Below, piece by piece: positions 4,173 to 64,000 of a stretch of DNA of 64,000 nt. The notes below the pieces were generated by a model. That model had not been told where the DNA came from and made no database searches. It worked only from the letters and a program-made list of their open reading frames with translations. Source of the stretch: Halorussus salilacus (lineage in GTDB: Archaea > Halobacteriota > Halobacteria > Halobacteriales > Haladaptataceae); contig NZ_CP099993.1 of assembly GCF_024138125.1 (NCBI RefSeq), positions 2,666,001 through 2,730,000 of the forward strand, read 5' to 3'. The position numbers were made by a program, and so were the translations under genes. Within the stretch, counting starts at the first letter, position 1; every line of letters begins with the position of its first letter.

Positions 4173-4320
4173 GTCACCTATGAAACCGCAACCACACCCT
4201 CCCCAACCGACTGCGTTTCTCGGACGTTCGCTTCGCTCACGCCCTGCGATACTCGTCCCTCGCGCGGTTGGCGCGGGCCAAACCGCGGCCCGCGCCAGCG
4301 CGCGCCGAGTTGACTGTCCC
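4173..4320 (+). repeat. E1 repeat, copy 1 (structured dispersed element)
   Basis: The segment opens with GTCACCTATGAAACCGCA and continues with a CCTCCCCAACCGACTGCG block, a CGCTTCGCTCACG block and a CTCGTCCCTCGCGCG block. The same order recurs at 55060-55354, where it also appears inverted at the far end. A hairpin follows: 10-base arms at 4270-4279 and 4287-4296 around a 7-base loop AAACCGC. In the second copy the arms differ in sequence but the loop is AAACTGC, so the stem has changed on both sides while the loop is kept. No coding potential is apparent. Function is unknown; it could be a small non-autonomous mobile element or a structured RNA. Confidence 0.65.
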
Positions 4321-4498
4321 ACCGGCTGACTCTCCGCGGGACAGTCCACCGGGCGACGACCGGCAAGACAATCCACCGGGTGGGACTGAAAGGGGCCGCC
4401 CGCTCGCGTTCTACGTGGTCGTCTCAGCGACCCCTATCCGAGTGAGCGAAGCGAGCGAGGATATGTCGCTGAGCGACCGCGAGCGGGCGGGGGCTTTC
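4312..4498 (+). repeat. E2 repeat, copy a (full nested hairpin with leading short repeats)
   Basis: Degenerate 27-28 base direct repeats (GACAGTCCACCGGG and similar, at 4312, 4340 and 4367) lead into CCACCGGGTGG at 4373-4383 and then TGGGACTGAAAGGGGC. A long hairpin follows: GAAAG (4388-4392) pairs with CTTTC (4494-4498), the CGCCCGCTCGCG arm (4397-4408) pairs with 4478-4489, and an inner arm GTCGTCTCAGCGAC (4418-4431) pairs with 4465-4477 with one bulged base. The outer and middle stems are separated by opposed GGGG tracts. The inner loop holds the dispersed GAGCGAAGCGAGCG motif. Related copies lie at 30696, 57197, 59859 and 60277. Confidence 0.75.
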
Positions 4499-4606
4499 GA
4501 AGCGTTCTCGTTCACGGACTCTGTTTTTCGTAGCGAGCGGGCGGGGGCTTTCGAAGCGGTCTCGTTCACGGACTCTGTTTTTCGTAGCGAGCGGGCGGGG
4601 GCTTTC
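4481..4606 (+). repeat. 54-bp tandem repeat, 2.3 copies, built on the E2 terminal module
   Basis: Two complete 54-base units start at 4481 and 4535 and a partial third at 4589. Each unit begins with the E2 right arm (GAGCGGGCGGGGGCTTTC) and continues through TTCACGGACTCTGTTTTTCG. The first arm is the one that pairs in E2 copy a, so the repeat seems to have amplified the 3' half of that hairpin. The T5 tract after each G-rich arm resembles an archaeal terminator tail. It lies 110 to 240 bases before the HD-hydrolase start. Confidence 0.85.
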
Positions 4607-30659: not shown

Positions 30660-30731
30660 GGCCGACCGAACCGGGGGACGGTATTGCCGACCGAACCATC
30701 GGGGTGGGACTGAAAGGGGCCGGGGGCTTTC
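30660..30731 (+). repeat. E2 repeat, copy b (minimal form lacking the hairpin stem)
   Basis: Two GCCGACCGAACC repeats 26 bases apart lead to CCATCGGGGTGG (30696-30707), TGGGACTGAAAGGGGC and immediately CGGGGGCTTTC. Compared with copies a, c and e, the whole stem-loop between the two G tracts is absent, as if cleanly deleted. It lies 71 bases after the NSS stop and about 130 before pccB. Confidence 0.65.
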
Positions 30732-55059: not shown

Positions 55060-55354
55060 GTCACCTATGAGCCCGCACCACGTCCTCCCCAACCTCCTCA
55101 CTCCCTCGCTCCGCTCGGTCGCTCGTCCCTCGCACGAGAATCGCGGCCCAAACTGCGGGCCGCGATTCCGCGCGCCACAGCCGAACTCGTTCCGCGTATC
55201 GCGCATCTACGCTTCCGGCCCGGCGCGCGGAACGTCGAATCCGCTTCGCGGATTCGACTTCTCGTGCGAGGGACGAGGACCGCAGGGAGGAACAGGGGTG
55301 ACGACCGAGGACCGCAGTCGGTTGGGGAGGATGTGGTGCGGTCTCACAGGTGAC
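55060..55354. repeat. E1 repeat, copy 2 (two inverted E1 ends)
   Basis: The left end (55060) reads GTCACCTATGAGCCCGCA and the right end, read inverted from 55354, GTCACCTGTGAGACCGCA; both continue through CCTCCCCAACC and later CTCGTCCCTCGCACGAGAA. The inverted end shares CCCCAACCGACTGCG with copy 1. Inside, a hairpin has 12-base arms (55138-55149 and 55157-55168) and a loop AAACTGC. A second hairpin (GTCGAATCCG/CGGATTCGAC) lies at about 55231-55255. The rest of 54924-55404 has no gene I can see. Confidence 0.7.
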
Positions 55355-57196: not shown

Positions 57197-57319
57197 GAAA
57201 GCCCCCGCCTTCTCCGCTCCCGCGGCTCGTTGCGCGCTTCGGTCGCTTCGCTCCCTCCAGTGCTTACGTCGCCGGGGTTCGCGGAGAAGGCGGCCCCTTT
57301 CAGTCCCACCTCGCGGTGG
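57197..57319 (-). repeat. E2 repeat, copy c (full hairpin with different stem)
   Basis: On the minus strand it reads CCACC-GCGA-GGTGG, TGGGACTGAAAGGGGC, arm CGCCTTCTCCGC, a 63-base loop, arm GCGGAGAAGGCG, then GGGGCTTTC. The stem sequence differs from copies a and e at the same positions on both arms, so pairing is preserved. The remainder of 57061-57400 has no gene that I can see. It lies 82 bases after the DHH gene and about 135 before elp3. Confidence 0.75.
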
Positions 57320-59728: not shown

Positions 59729-59858
59729 CTTCTCTAGAACCGACCCGAACGTCCTTGAAAGTTCTCCGGGACTGGCGTTCGATAAGTCGCGCTCGACGAC
59801 GCAATCCACCGGGGAACCGGCAGGTGGAACATCCGGCAGAATCCGGCCGGTGAATCAT

Positions 59859-59893
59859 CTACCGGGTGGGACCGAAAGGAGCCGGGCGCTTTC
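59859..59893 (+). repeat. E2 repeat, copy d (minimal, degenerate)
   Basis: CTACCGGGTGG and TGGGACCGAAAGGAGC join directly to CGGGCGCTTTC, without the stem-loop, as in copy b. Upstream, 59805-59858 holds degenerate ATCCACCGGGG-like repeats matching those in copy a. The flanking genes are both on the minus strand. Confidence 0.55.
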
Positions 59894-60276: not shown

Positions 60277-60407
60277 GAAAGCCCCCGCCCGCTCGCGGTC
60301 GCTCCGGCGGATATTCGGCGCTCTCCGCACTTCCCGCGCCGAATAGAGCCGCCGGAGACGACTAAAGTGGACGCGAGCGGGCGGCCCCTTTCGTTCCCAC
60401 CCTGTGG
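60277..60407 (-). repeat. E2 repeat, copy e (full nested hairpin)
   Basis: On the minus strand: CCACAGGGTGG, TGGGAACGAAAGGGGC, arm CGCCCGCTCGCG (60372-60383), an inner 24-27 base stem (GTCGTCTCCGGCGGCTCTAT and partner), arm CGCGAGCGGGCG (60286-60297), then GGGGGCTTTC. It lies 34 bases after the Yip1 gene and 63 before the next start. The rest of 60215-60440 has no gene. Confidence 0.8.
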
Positions 60408-63303: not shown

Positions 63304-63343
63304 GCGGTCGGGCGCGCCTCGCGAGCGAGGCGCGCCCGACCGC
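63304..63343. terminator. 40-base hairpin upstream of the MDR gene
   Basis: Nineteen-base perfect arms with a GA loop lie between the MDR start and the FMN-reductase gene's 3' end, so it probably ends the latter's transcript. Confidence 0.6.
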
Positions 63344-63366
63344 GCTCGTCGGTCGGCTCGCGCCGA

Positions 63367-63477
63367 CGTTCTCGGTCACTCCACCGCGTCGGCGTTCTCG
63401 GTCACTCCACCGCGTCGGCGTTCTCGGTCACTCCACCGCGCCGACGTTCTCGGTCACTCCACCGCGCCGACGTTCTC
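63367..63477. repeat. 26-bp tandem repeat at the FMN-reductase gene's 3' end
   Basis: Four units of 26 bases start at 63367, 63393, 63419 and 63445, with a partial fifth at 63471. On the minus strand each unit carries GAGAACG(T/C)CG(G/A)CGCGGTGGAGTGA; the first read in the gene encodes ENVGAVE-stop and the rest are untranslated. Confidence 0.9.
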
Positions 63478-64000
63478 CTCGCTCTCCATCGTGGGCGGGG
63501 AGGGCTCGATTTTCGCGTAGTTCACCATCTCCTCGCCGAGTCGGACCACGCGCTCTTCGAGGTCCTCGTCGGTGAACTCGCCGTCCCGGACCGCCGAGTG
63601 CGACCGCGGGACCGCGGCCTGATCTGGCAGGACCCACGCGTCGAGCGCCCGGCAGACCGACCGGAGGTGTTCGAGCGCGGTGATTGGGAACTTCCCGCCC
63701 GACACCGCGAGCAGGCCGACGGTCTTGTGCTCGAACTCGTCGAAACCGCAGTAGTCGAGCGCGGTCTTGAGGTTCGAGGAGTACGACCCGTGGTACATCG
63801 GGGTCCCGAGGATGACGGCGTCGGCCTCGCGCACGTCTCGGGCGAACGCGGCCGCGTCGCCAGCGTCCTCGTCGTCCACGTCGGGGTCGAACGCGGGCAG
63901 GTCGTAGTCCCGGAGGTCGAGGAGGTCGCCCTCCCCGCCCGCGTTCTCGACGCCATCCAGTGCGCGCTCCAGCGCGACTCGGGTGACGCTGTCGTCTCGC
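63454..64000 (-). CDS. NAD(P)H-dependent FMN reductase family protein (truncated by window edge)
   Basis: A flavodoxin-like flavoprotein; the visible 181 codons lack the start, which lies beyond 64000. Seen are LLDLRDYDLPAF (a conserved turn), ADAVILGTPMYHGSYSSNLK (FMN-binding loop), LLAVSGGKFP and the helix ALEHLRSVCRALDAW. It probably reduces flavin, quinone or an azo-compound. The reading frame is open to the window edge. The 3' end is duplicated in a tandem repeat. Confidence 0.85.
   Translation of the reverse strand, partial: RDDSVTRVALERALDGVENAGGEGDLLDLRDYDLPAFDPDVDDEDAGDAAAFARDVREADAVILGTPMYHGSYSSNLKTALDYCGFDEFEHKTVGLLAVSGGKFPITALEHLRSVCRALDAWVLPDQAAVPRSHSAVRDGEFTDEDLEERVVRLGEEMVNYAKIEPSPPTMESEENVGAVE

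Follow-up and report, generated by a model that had tools for sequence, protein, structure and literature searches.

An extragenic palindromic repeat family of haloarchaea, probably working like bacterial REP sequences

A nested hairpin, E2, occurs five times (copies a to e) in a 64,000-nucleotide stretch of Halorussus salilacus DNA (contig NZ_CP099993.1, positions 2,666,001–2,730,000, forward strand), here called the window, and its stem differs between copies with matching changes in both arms. What kind of element is it, and does its conserved pairing mark an RNA, a mobile element, or something else? The answer we favor, with some reserve, is that the five copies are members of an unnamed haloarchaeal extragenic palindromic repeat family, REP/REPIN-like in its working, with hairpin cassettes spread by ectopic exchange.

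Anatomy of E2

At ≤3 mismatches, the window contains the 18-base core GGTGGGANYGAAAGGGGC at exactly five sites (4379+, 30703+, 57293−, 59865+, and 60384−); a shuffled control gave a mean of 0.62 and a maximum of 3. The five copies comprise the following features.

4340..4382, + strand: copy a, upstream R1-like units ending CCACCGGGTGG
4383..4396, + strand: copy a, left frame GGACTGAAAGGGGC
4397..4489, + strand: copy a, type I palindromic cassette of 93 bp, with outer stem CGCCCGCTCGCG/CGCGAGCGGGCG and inner nested hairpins
4490..4498, + strand: copy a, right frame GGGGCTTTC
4499..4606, + strand: copy a, downstream R2 array of two 54-bp units, each ending GTAGCGAGCGGGCGGGGGCTTTC
30703..30731, + strand: copy b, empty frame GGTGGGACTGAAAGGGGC-CG-GGGGCTTTC, with R1-like units immediately upstream
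57197..57319, − strand: copy c, frame with type II cassette, frame ends at 57310 and 57197
59787..59893, + strand: copy d, about three R1 units, then a diverged empty frame GGACCGAAAGGAGC-CG-GGCGCTTTC
60277..60407, − strand: copy e, frame with type I cassette, without a downstream array

The sequence-only reading had placed copies a, c, and e correctly and read their stems correctly, as CGCCCGCTCGCG in a and e and CGCCTTCTCCGC in c. It also had b and d right as stemless copies; both are frames with only CG between the halves. Copy c is the best covariance-model match (E 7e-23).

Anatomy was parsed from targeted stretches fetched around copies, which gave 98 rows with both frame ends; two are duplicates from overlapping stretches, leaving 96 copies. 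In each copy a frame, GGTGGGACTGAAAGGGGC ... GGGGCTTTC, encloses a palindromic cassette of 2–273 bp. The parts follow in the order 0–5 upstream units, GGTGGGACTGAAAGGGGC, cassette, GGGGCTTTC, and 0–6 downstream units. Upstream tandem units are 26–27 bp long, resemble CGCCCGGTGACACAATCCACCGAGAA, and each carry a CGGTG/CACCG inverted repeat. Downstream tandem units are 50–54 bp long and end in GTAGCGAGCGGGCGGGGGCTTTC. A recognizable upstream unit is absent from half of the copies and a downstream unit from 59 of the 98 rows. The plan first proposed thus described a genuine repeated family and drew its extent too short, since both arrays also belong to the element. The frame also keeps a GGG/GGG internal loop that separates its GAAAG/CTTTC foot from the stem of the cassette.

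Two cassette types were distinguished. Type I, in copies a and e and most copies of the window's genome, runs inward from an outer stem of 12 bp through a linker and a middle stem bearing a single-base bulge to an asymmetric loop (CCC or CAAC opposite T) and an inner stem. Type II, in copy c and a few others of this genome, is marked by A.A and G.A mismatches in its internal loops and by the letters AAGCACCGCAG / GAGGAGCGCAG; both letters and mismatches are conserved between genera. Certain copies hold extra two-hairpin modules inside, reaching 273 bp with folding retained. In empty frames, namely copies b and d and five copies read in genome G026, the two halves are separated by CG or CGCG alone.

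E2 cassettes at eight loci (L017, L020, L021, L058, L063, L075, L085, and L099) enclose two-hairpin modules such as CCTCGTGAGCGAAGCGAACGAGGGCTCG..CCGACGG; at L014 and L068 modules of this kind lie just upstream of E2, as if hairpins had been inserted into hairpins. A second repeat, related to GAGGCTGGGGAGGGTGAGGTGCGGTGCGG, is found in the window at 4191–4227 and, inverted, at 55301–55337, and is probably the element that the sequence-only reading called E1. It replaces the 27-bp array directly upstream of the E2 frame in G026 and at loci that include Halorubrum species. Window positions 63333–63488 hold 26-bp tandem units, CGCGTCGGCGTTCTCGGTCACTCCAC, whose sequence is not related to that of the E2 arrays.

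Copy number, placement and distribution

The expectation of further copies outside the window was borne out. Searched at ≤1 mismatch, the 3.6-Mb genome (four contigs) yields 57 + 57 matches on the two strands to the 13-base core GACTGAAAGGGGC and none to its reversed control; about 96 distinct complete copies are present. None of the 98 rows overlaps a predicted gene by more than 30 bp, as judged with a home-made codon-based gene finder. In the window, copies a, b, c, and e each precede a gene that points the same way, and b, c, and e also follow a same-strand gene; d does not. This arrangement, taken from the window alone, persists as a genome-wide bias and fails as a rule: E2 and its downstream gene run in one direction in 69 of 98 rows, or 67 of 96 without the duplicates (p ~1e-4). 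In tandem gene regions the element matches the orientation of the genes 39 times against 14 (p=0.0008). Divergent regions hold 27 rows and convergent gene ends 15; with no excess at convergent ends, E2 was rejected as a terminator. The 1,065 proteins encoded next to E2 include no enriched family that could be a partner travelling with it.

The type II covariance model has matches in 101 of 116 Halobacteria genomes and 39 of 45 genera, many genomes having about 30 matches or more when up to 33 candidates were scored per genome. Between related genomes, E2 copy number runs from 0 to >30. Exact GACTGAAAGGGGCCG has 61 copies in G000, 62 in one genome of another family, and 0–8 elsewhere. A type II pattern scan covered 84,980 species, and all among the matches listed were haloarchaeal. 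Both cassette types are present on haloarchaeal plasmids, with type I on those of Haloarcula and Haladaptatus; the nearest plasmid match to copy a is from Halorussus. One type II query gave no match in 50,697 phage records.

Orthologous intergenic sites differ in E2 content. Between RecJ and Elp3, the window's genome has a type II cassette, G124 a type I cassette, G116 an empty frame, and G024 nothing. Five further loci (L001, L002, L007, L008, and L012) carry E2 in the window's genome and none in G024. L007 lacks E2 in G124 and G118 as well, and the promoter-like sequence before its downstream gene (GCGGCCAAACTCTTTAC in the window's genome, closely similar elsewhere) is kept in all four genomes. 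L006, L008, and L012 each hold E2 in G124, with cassettes unlike those of the window's genome. No target-site duplication or insertion boundary was definable at the orthologous sites compared, because intergenic flanks diverge too fast. The upstream array of L006 has five units in the window's genome and about ten in G124. At L300 (G124), two sequence variants alternate along an upstream array of about ten units; the corresponding site of the window's genome has five, and array length there is a possible strain-typing marker.

Covariation and cassette exchange

Covariation lies above background, in agreement with the conserved pairing first read from the five copies. In the class-wide type II alignment, which was fitted to the covariance model, 96.4% of cells are paired and 27 of 29 pairs show double changes. 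Its covariation score is 0.615 against 0.157 in shuffles (0 of 500 reach it), and slid versions score 0.04–0.09. The outermost pair, GAAAG/CTTTC, is flipped to CAAAG/CTTTG in 47 of 127 sequences. Type I cassettes show double changes in 18 of 35 pairs, one of which occurs as UA 17, AU 15, CG 15, and GC 5 times.

All-versus-all comparison of cassettes and flanks found seven pairs with cassettes ≥95% identical and a mean flank identity of 69%/69%, against a background of 63%/60%. Among pairs with cassettes 96–100% identical, flanks stay near that background: cassettes are 99% identical with flanks at 67/62% in L066/L069, and 98% identical with flanks at 62/69% in L049/L050. In alignments of near-identical cassettes, identity begins at GGGTGGGACTG and stops at or just past GGGGCTTTC; in L029/L057 the downstream flank is shared as well. 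L018 and L019 have near-identical flanks and outer stems with the inner hairpin replaced, so swapping also occurs at the inner level. The decoupling of cassettes from flanks, together with the four states at the RecJ-Elp3 site, makes whole-hairpin exchange a main source of within-genome covariation, not point compensation alone. The differences first noted between copies a/e and c do conserve pairing, but they were not built up one compensatory point mutation after another within a single element; the frame is shared, and in c it encloses the class-wide type II cassette instead. Repeat families can covary strongly through replacement of entire hairpins, and such a signal is by itself no proof of RNA function.

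Stepwise point compensation may be an additional source. In one other genus, three species (L310, L311, and L313) retain a type II E2 between the same two genes, which from their sequences appear to be NucS-like and tRNA-splicing-endonuclease-like (the NucS-EndA site). The stems differ in one of the three, with both arms altered between species, a change that replacement may also explain.

We propose that cassettes are copied between frames through ectopic gene conversion, with the frame and outer stems supplying homology on both sides and hairpin extrusion as the likely trigger. Both arms would stay matched because they are replaced together. Whole modules would also reach new intergenic sites, where they may be tolerated because the downstream promoter is left intact. 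The strand would be kept foldable by selection or by exclusion of unpaired forms, and the folded form that matters would be single-stranded DNA or RNA. Such conversion is plausible because haloarchaea, according to PMC8223754 and PMC11276520, are polyploid and convert efficiently between genome copies. Cassettes could alternatively be shared by site-specific insertion into the frame.

Relation to REP sequences and competing explanations

Bacterial REPs and REPINs are extragenic, palindromic, and tagged, form head-to-head doublets with short spacers, and vary erratically in copy number (PMC3116915, PMC3733652). Among 127 type II elements at 94 loci, all 24 neighboring pairs are head-to-head, none being tail-to-tail or head-to-tail; the loci were picked around matches, so the paired fraction is not a genome-wide rate, but the lack of the two other arrangements carries information. 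Spacers are 31–38 bp in 16 of the 24 pairs, and their ends (CACCC/GGGTG) are mostly complementary. Like the GTAG and CGTC families of REP/BIME (PMC3733652), E2 is an imperfect palindrome of high copy number that lies outside genes and follows a short conserved tag; in both, dimers are mostly head-to-head, their short spacers may end in complementary sequence, and copy number is highly variable. The E2 hairpin is modular and about 75–270 nt long, whereas those of REP/BIME are roughly 20–40 nt. Within-frame cassette swaps, flanking tandem arrays, the lack of a RAYT, and confinement to Halobacteria also set it apart. REPINs (PMC3116915) share with it the inverted doublet, a short conserved spacer with pairing conserved ends, and compensatory changes in the spacer/hairpin region. 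However, REPINs are tied to RAYTs and replicate as the doublet, whereas E2 is often found single, and what its copies exchange is the hairpin enclosed by the frame.

E2 has the many dispersed extragenic copies and the imperfect palindrome, predicted to form a hairpin, that are asked of a REP. The formal rule also places a GTAG/GTGG tetranucleotide 0–2 nt 5′ of the hairpin (PMC6006769). E2 does carry a GGTGG tag, but 4 nt (GACT) from the hairpin foot. With both the tag distance and the RAYT link failing, E2 works like a REP family and is not filed as a member of the RAYT-REP system. REP-type repeats are known mainly from bacteria and in association with RAYT transposases. An archaeal counterpart that spans a class and lacks RAYT would separate the repeat architecture, inverted hairpin doublets in intergenic DNA, from its supposed mobilizer. 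It would also offer a natural system for studying palindrome persistence and copying in polyploid archaea.

The earlier remark that no named family of this plan is known agrees with our searches. Rfam matches in the window at or above the gathering score were tRNA only, a permissive Rfam scan of type II loci gave one chance miRNA match only, and exact E2 motif and core strings found no relevant paper in the open-licence PMC literature; a prior description in subscription journals is possible. The 2025 RepRanger REP survey names no haloarchaeon among its archaea in the part available. A CRISPR repeat was considered, as GGTGGGACTGAAAG resembles the 3′ half of one, and was rejected: GACTGAAAG recurs at 54–79 nt spacing in none of the 116 genomes.

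The alternative that survives best is a structured RNA, in a 3′-UTR or free-standing, formed by the sense strand and with a role in protein binding or in the processing or stability of mRNA; type II would be its conserved form. We hold this possible and rather unlikely. Like the candidate structured RNA families of Rfam 15, E2 has a conserved secondary structure and heavy covariation, and its type II loop letters and mismatches persist between genera; unlike them, it matches no Rfam family, and neither such a copy number nor cassette exchange is usual among non-coding RNA genes. The type II pairing statistics and the collapse of slid versions suit an RNA, although cassette swapping weakens covariation as evidence for one. 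Sense-strand G.T exceeds A.C by 22 to 9 in class-wide type II outer stems (p=0.03; copies related) and by 53 to 25 in the covariance-model pairs without one pair, the latter in an alignment (A3) fitted to an RNA model and so favoring G.U. For type I the counts are 22 to 5 overall and 6 to 5 in the outer stem alone. The E2 wobble rate of ~2–2.6% is not separable from the 3.8% of 13 tRNAs, a small control (p=0.14). The G.T excess would favor a single strand of the sense orientation, as RNA or as single-stranded DNA. The agreement of E2 with flanking genes in tandem regions (39 against 14) also fits an RNA, but 27 copies lie in divergent regions where no upstream mRNA would run in, and the GC-rich upstream unit shows no promoter-like sequence. 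Window copies, read by eye, lie upstream of likely TATA boxes and hence outside downstream leaders; a 5′ leader element was rejected on this ground.

Ectopic exchange, the reading we favor, shares several facts with a useful RNA, which would explain them at least as well: class-wide retention, one-locus inheritance across a genus (NucS-EndA), orientation bias to downstream genes, and G.T over A.C. A bolder extension, which we rate as doubtful, is a RAYT-free, class-wide archaeal system in which nested hairpins would be swapped hierarchically, whole or inner alone, between fixed docking frames by recombination specific to extruded hairpins, with the folded strand having a cellular job.

It is improbable that E2 is a chromosome-organizing protein-binding site whose hairpin and arrays recruit a putative nucleoid, segregation, or recombination factor. 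Its dispersal on chromosome and plasmids and the resemblance of the 26–27 bp units, with their inverted repeat, to a putative binding site would suit this role, but certain related complete genomes have zero copies, which is hard to square with an essential one.

Movement as a non-autonomous IS200/IS605-type element, carried as single-stranded DNA by a Y1 transposase in trans, is predicted by a reading that we consider quite improbable. E2 shares hairpin ends, intergenic placement, and haloarchaeal hosts with IS200/IS605-derived palindromic MITEs, it is strictly intergenic, and Y1 enzymes are common in the class. However, E2 has no Y1 gene association, and its head-to-head dimers and tandem arrays fall outside the MITE plan. 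No Y1 was detectable in the high-copy genomes G006, G009, G011, G015, and G026, Y1 is present in genomes without E2, and both Y1 genes of G000 lack flanking E2 frames. In Archaea, moreover, only the IS200 subclass of Y1 enzymes is reported (PMC6006769). Neither Y1 nor RAYT tracks copy number and no neighbor family is enriched, so no mobilizer of E2 was found among them. At L015, the E2 copy is followed directly downstream by a TnpB-like gene whose hairpin end (AAGCCCCGCCCTTCAGGGCGGGG) is of the IS200/IS605 type.

Least probable of all is covariation from template-switch (quasi-palindrome) correction alone, with neither selection nor mobility: the arms are nearly perfectly Watson-Crick and one such event yields matched changes, but the reading is disfavored by the GGG/GGG loop, single-base bulge, CCC/T loop, and A.A/G.A mismatches, all kept uncorrected between copies and genera, and identical cassettes at unlinked sites require copying between loci.
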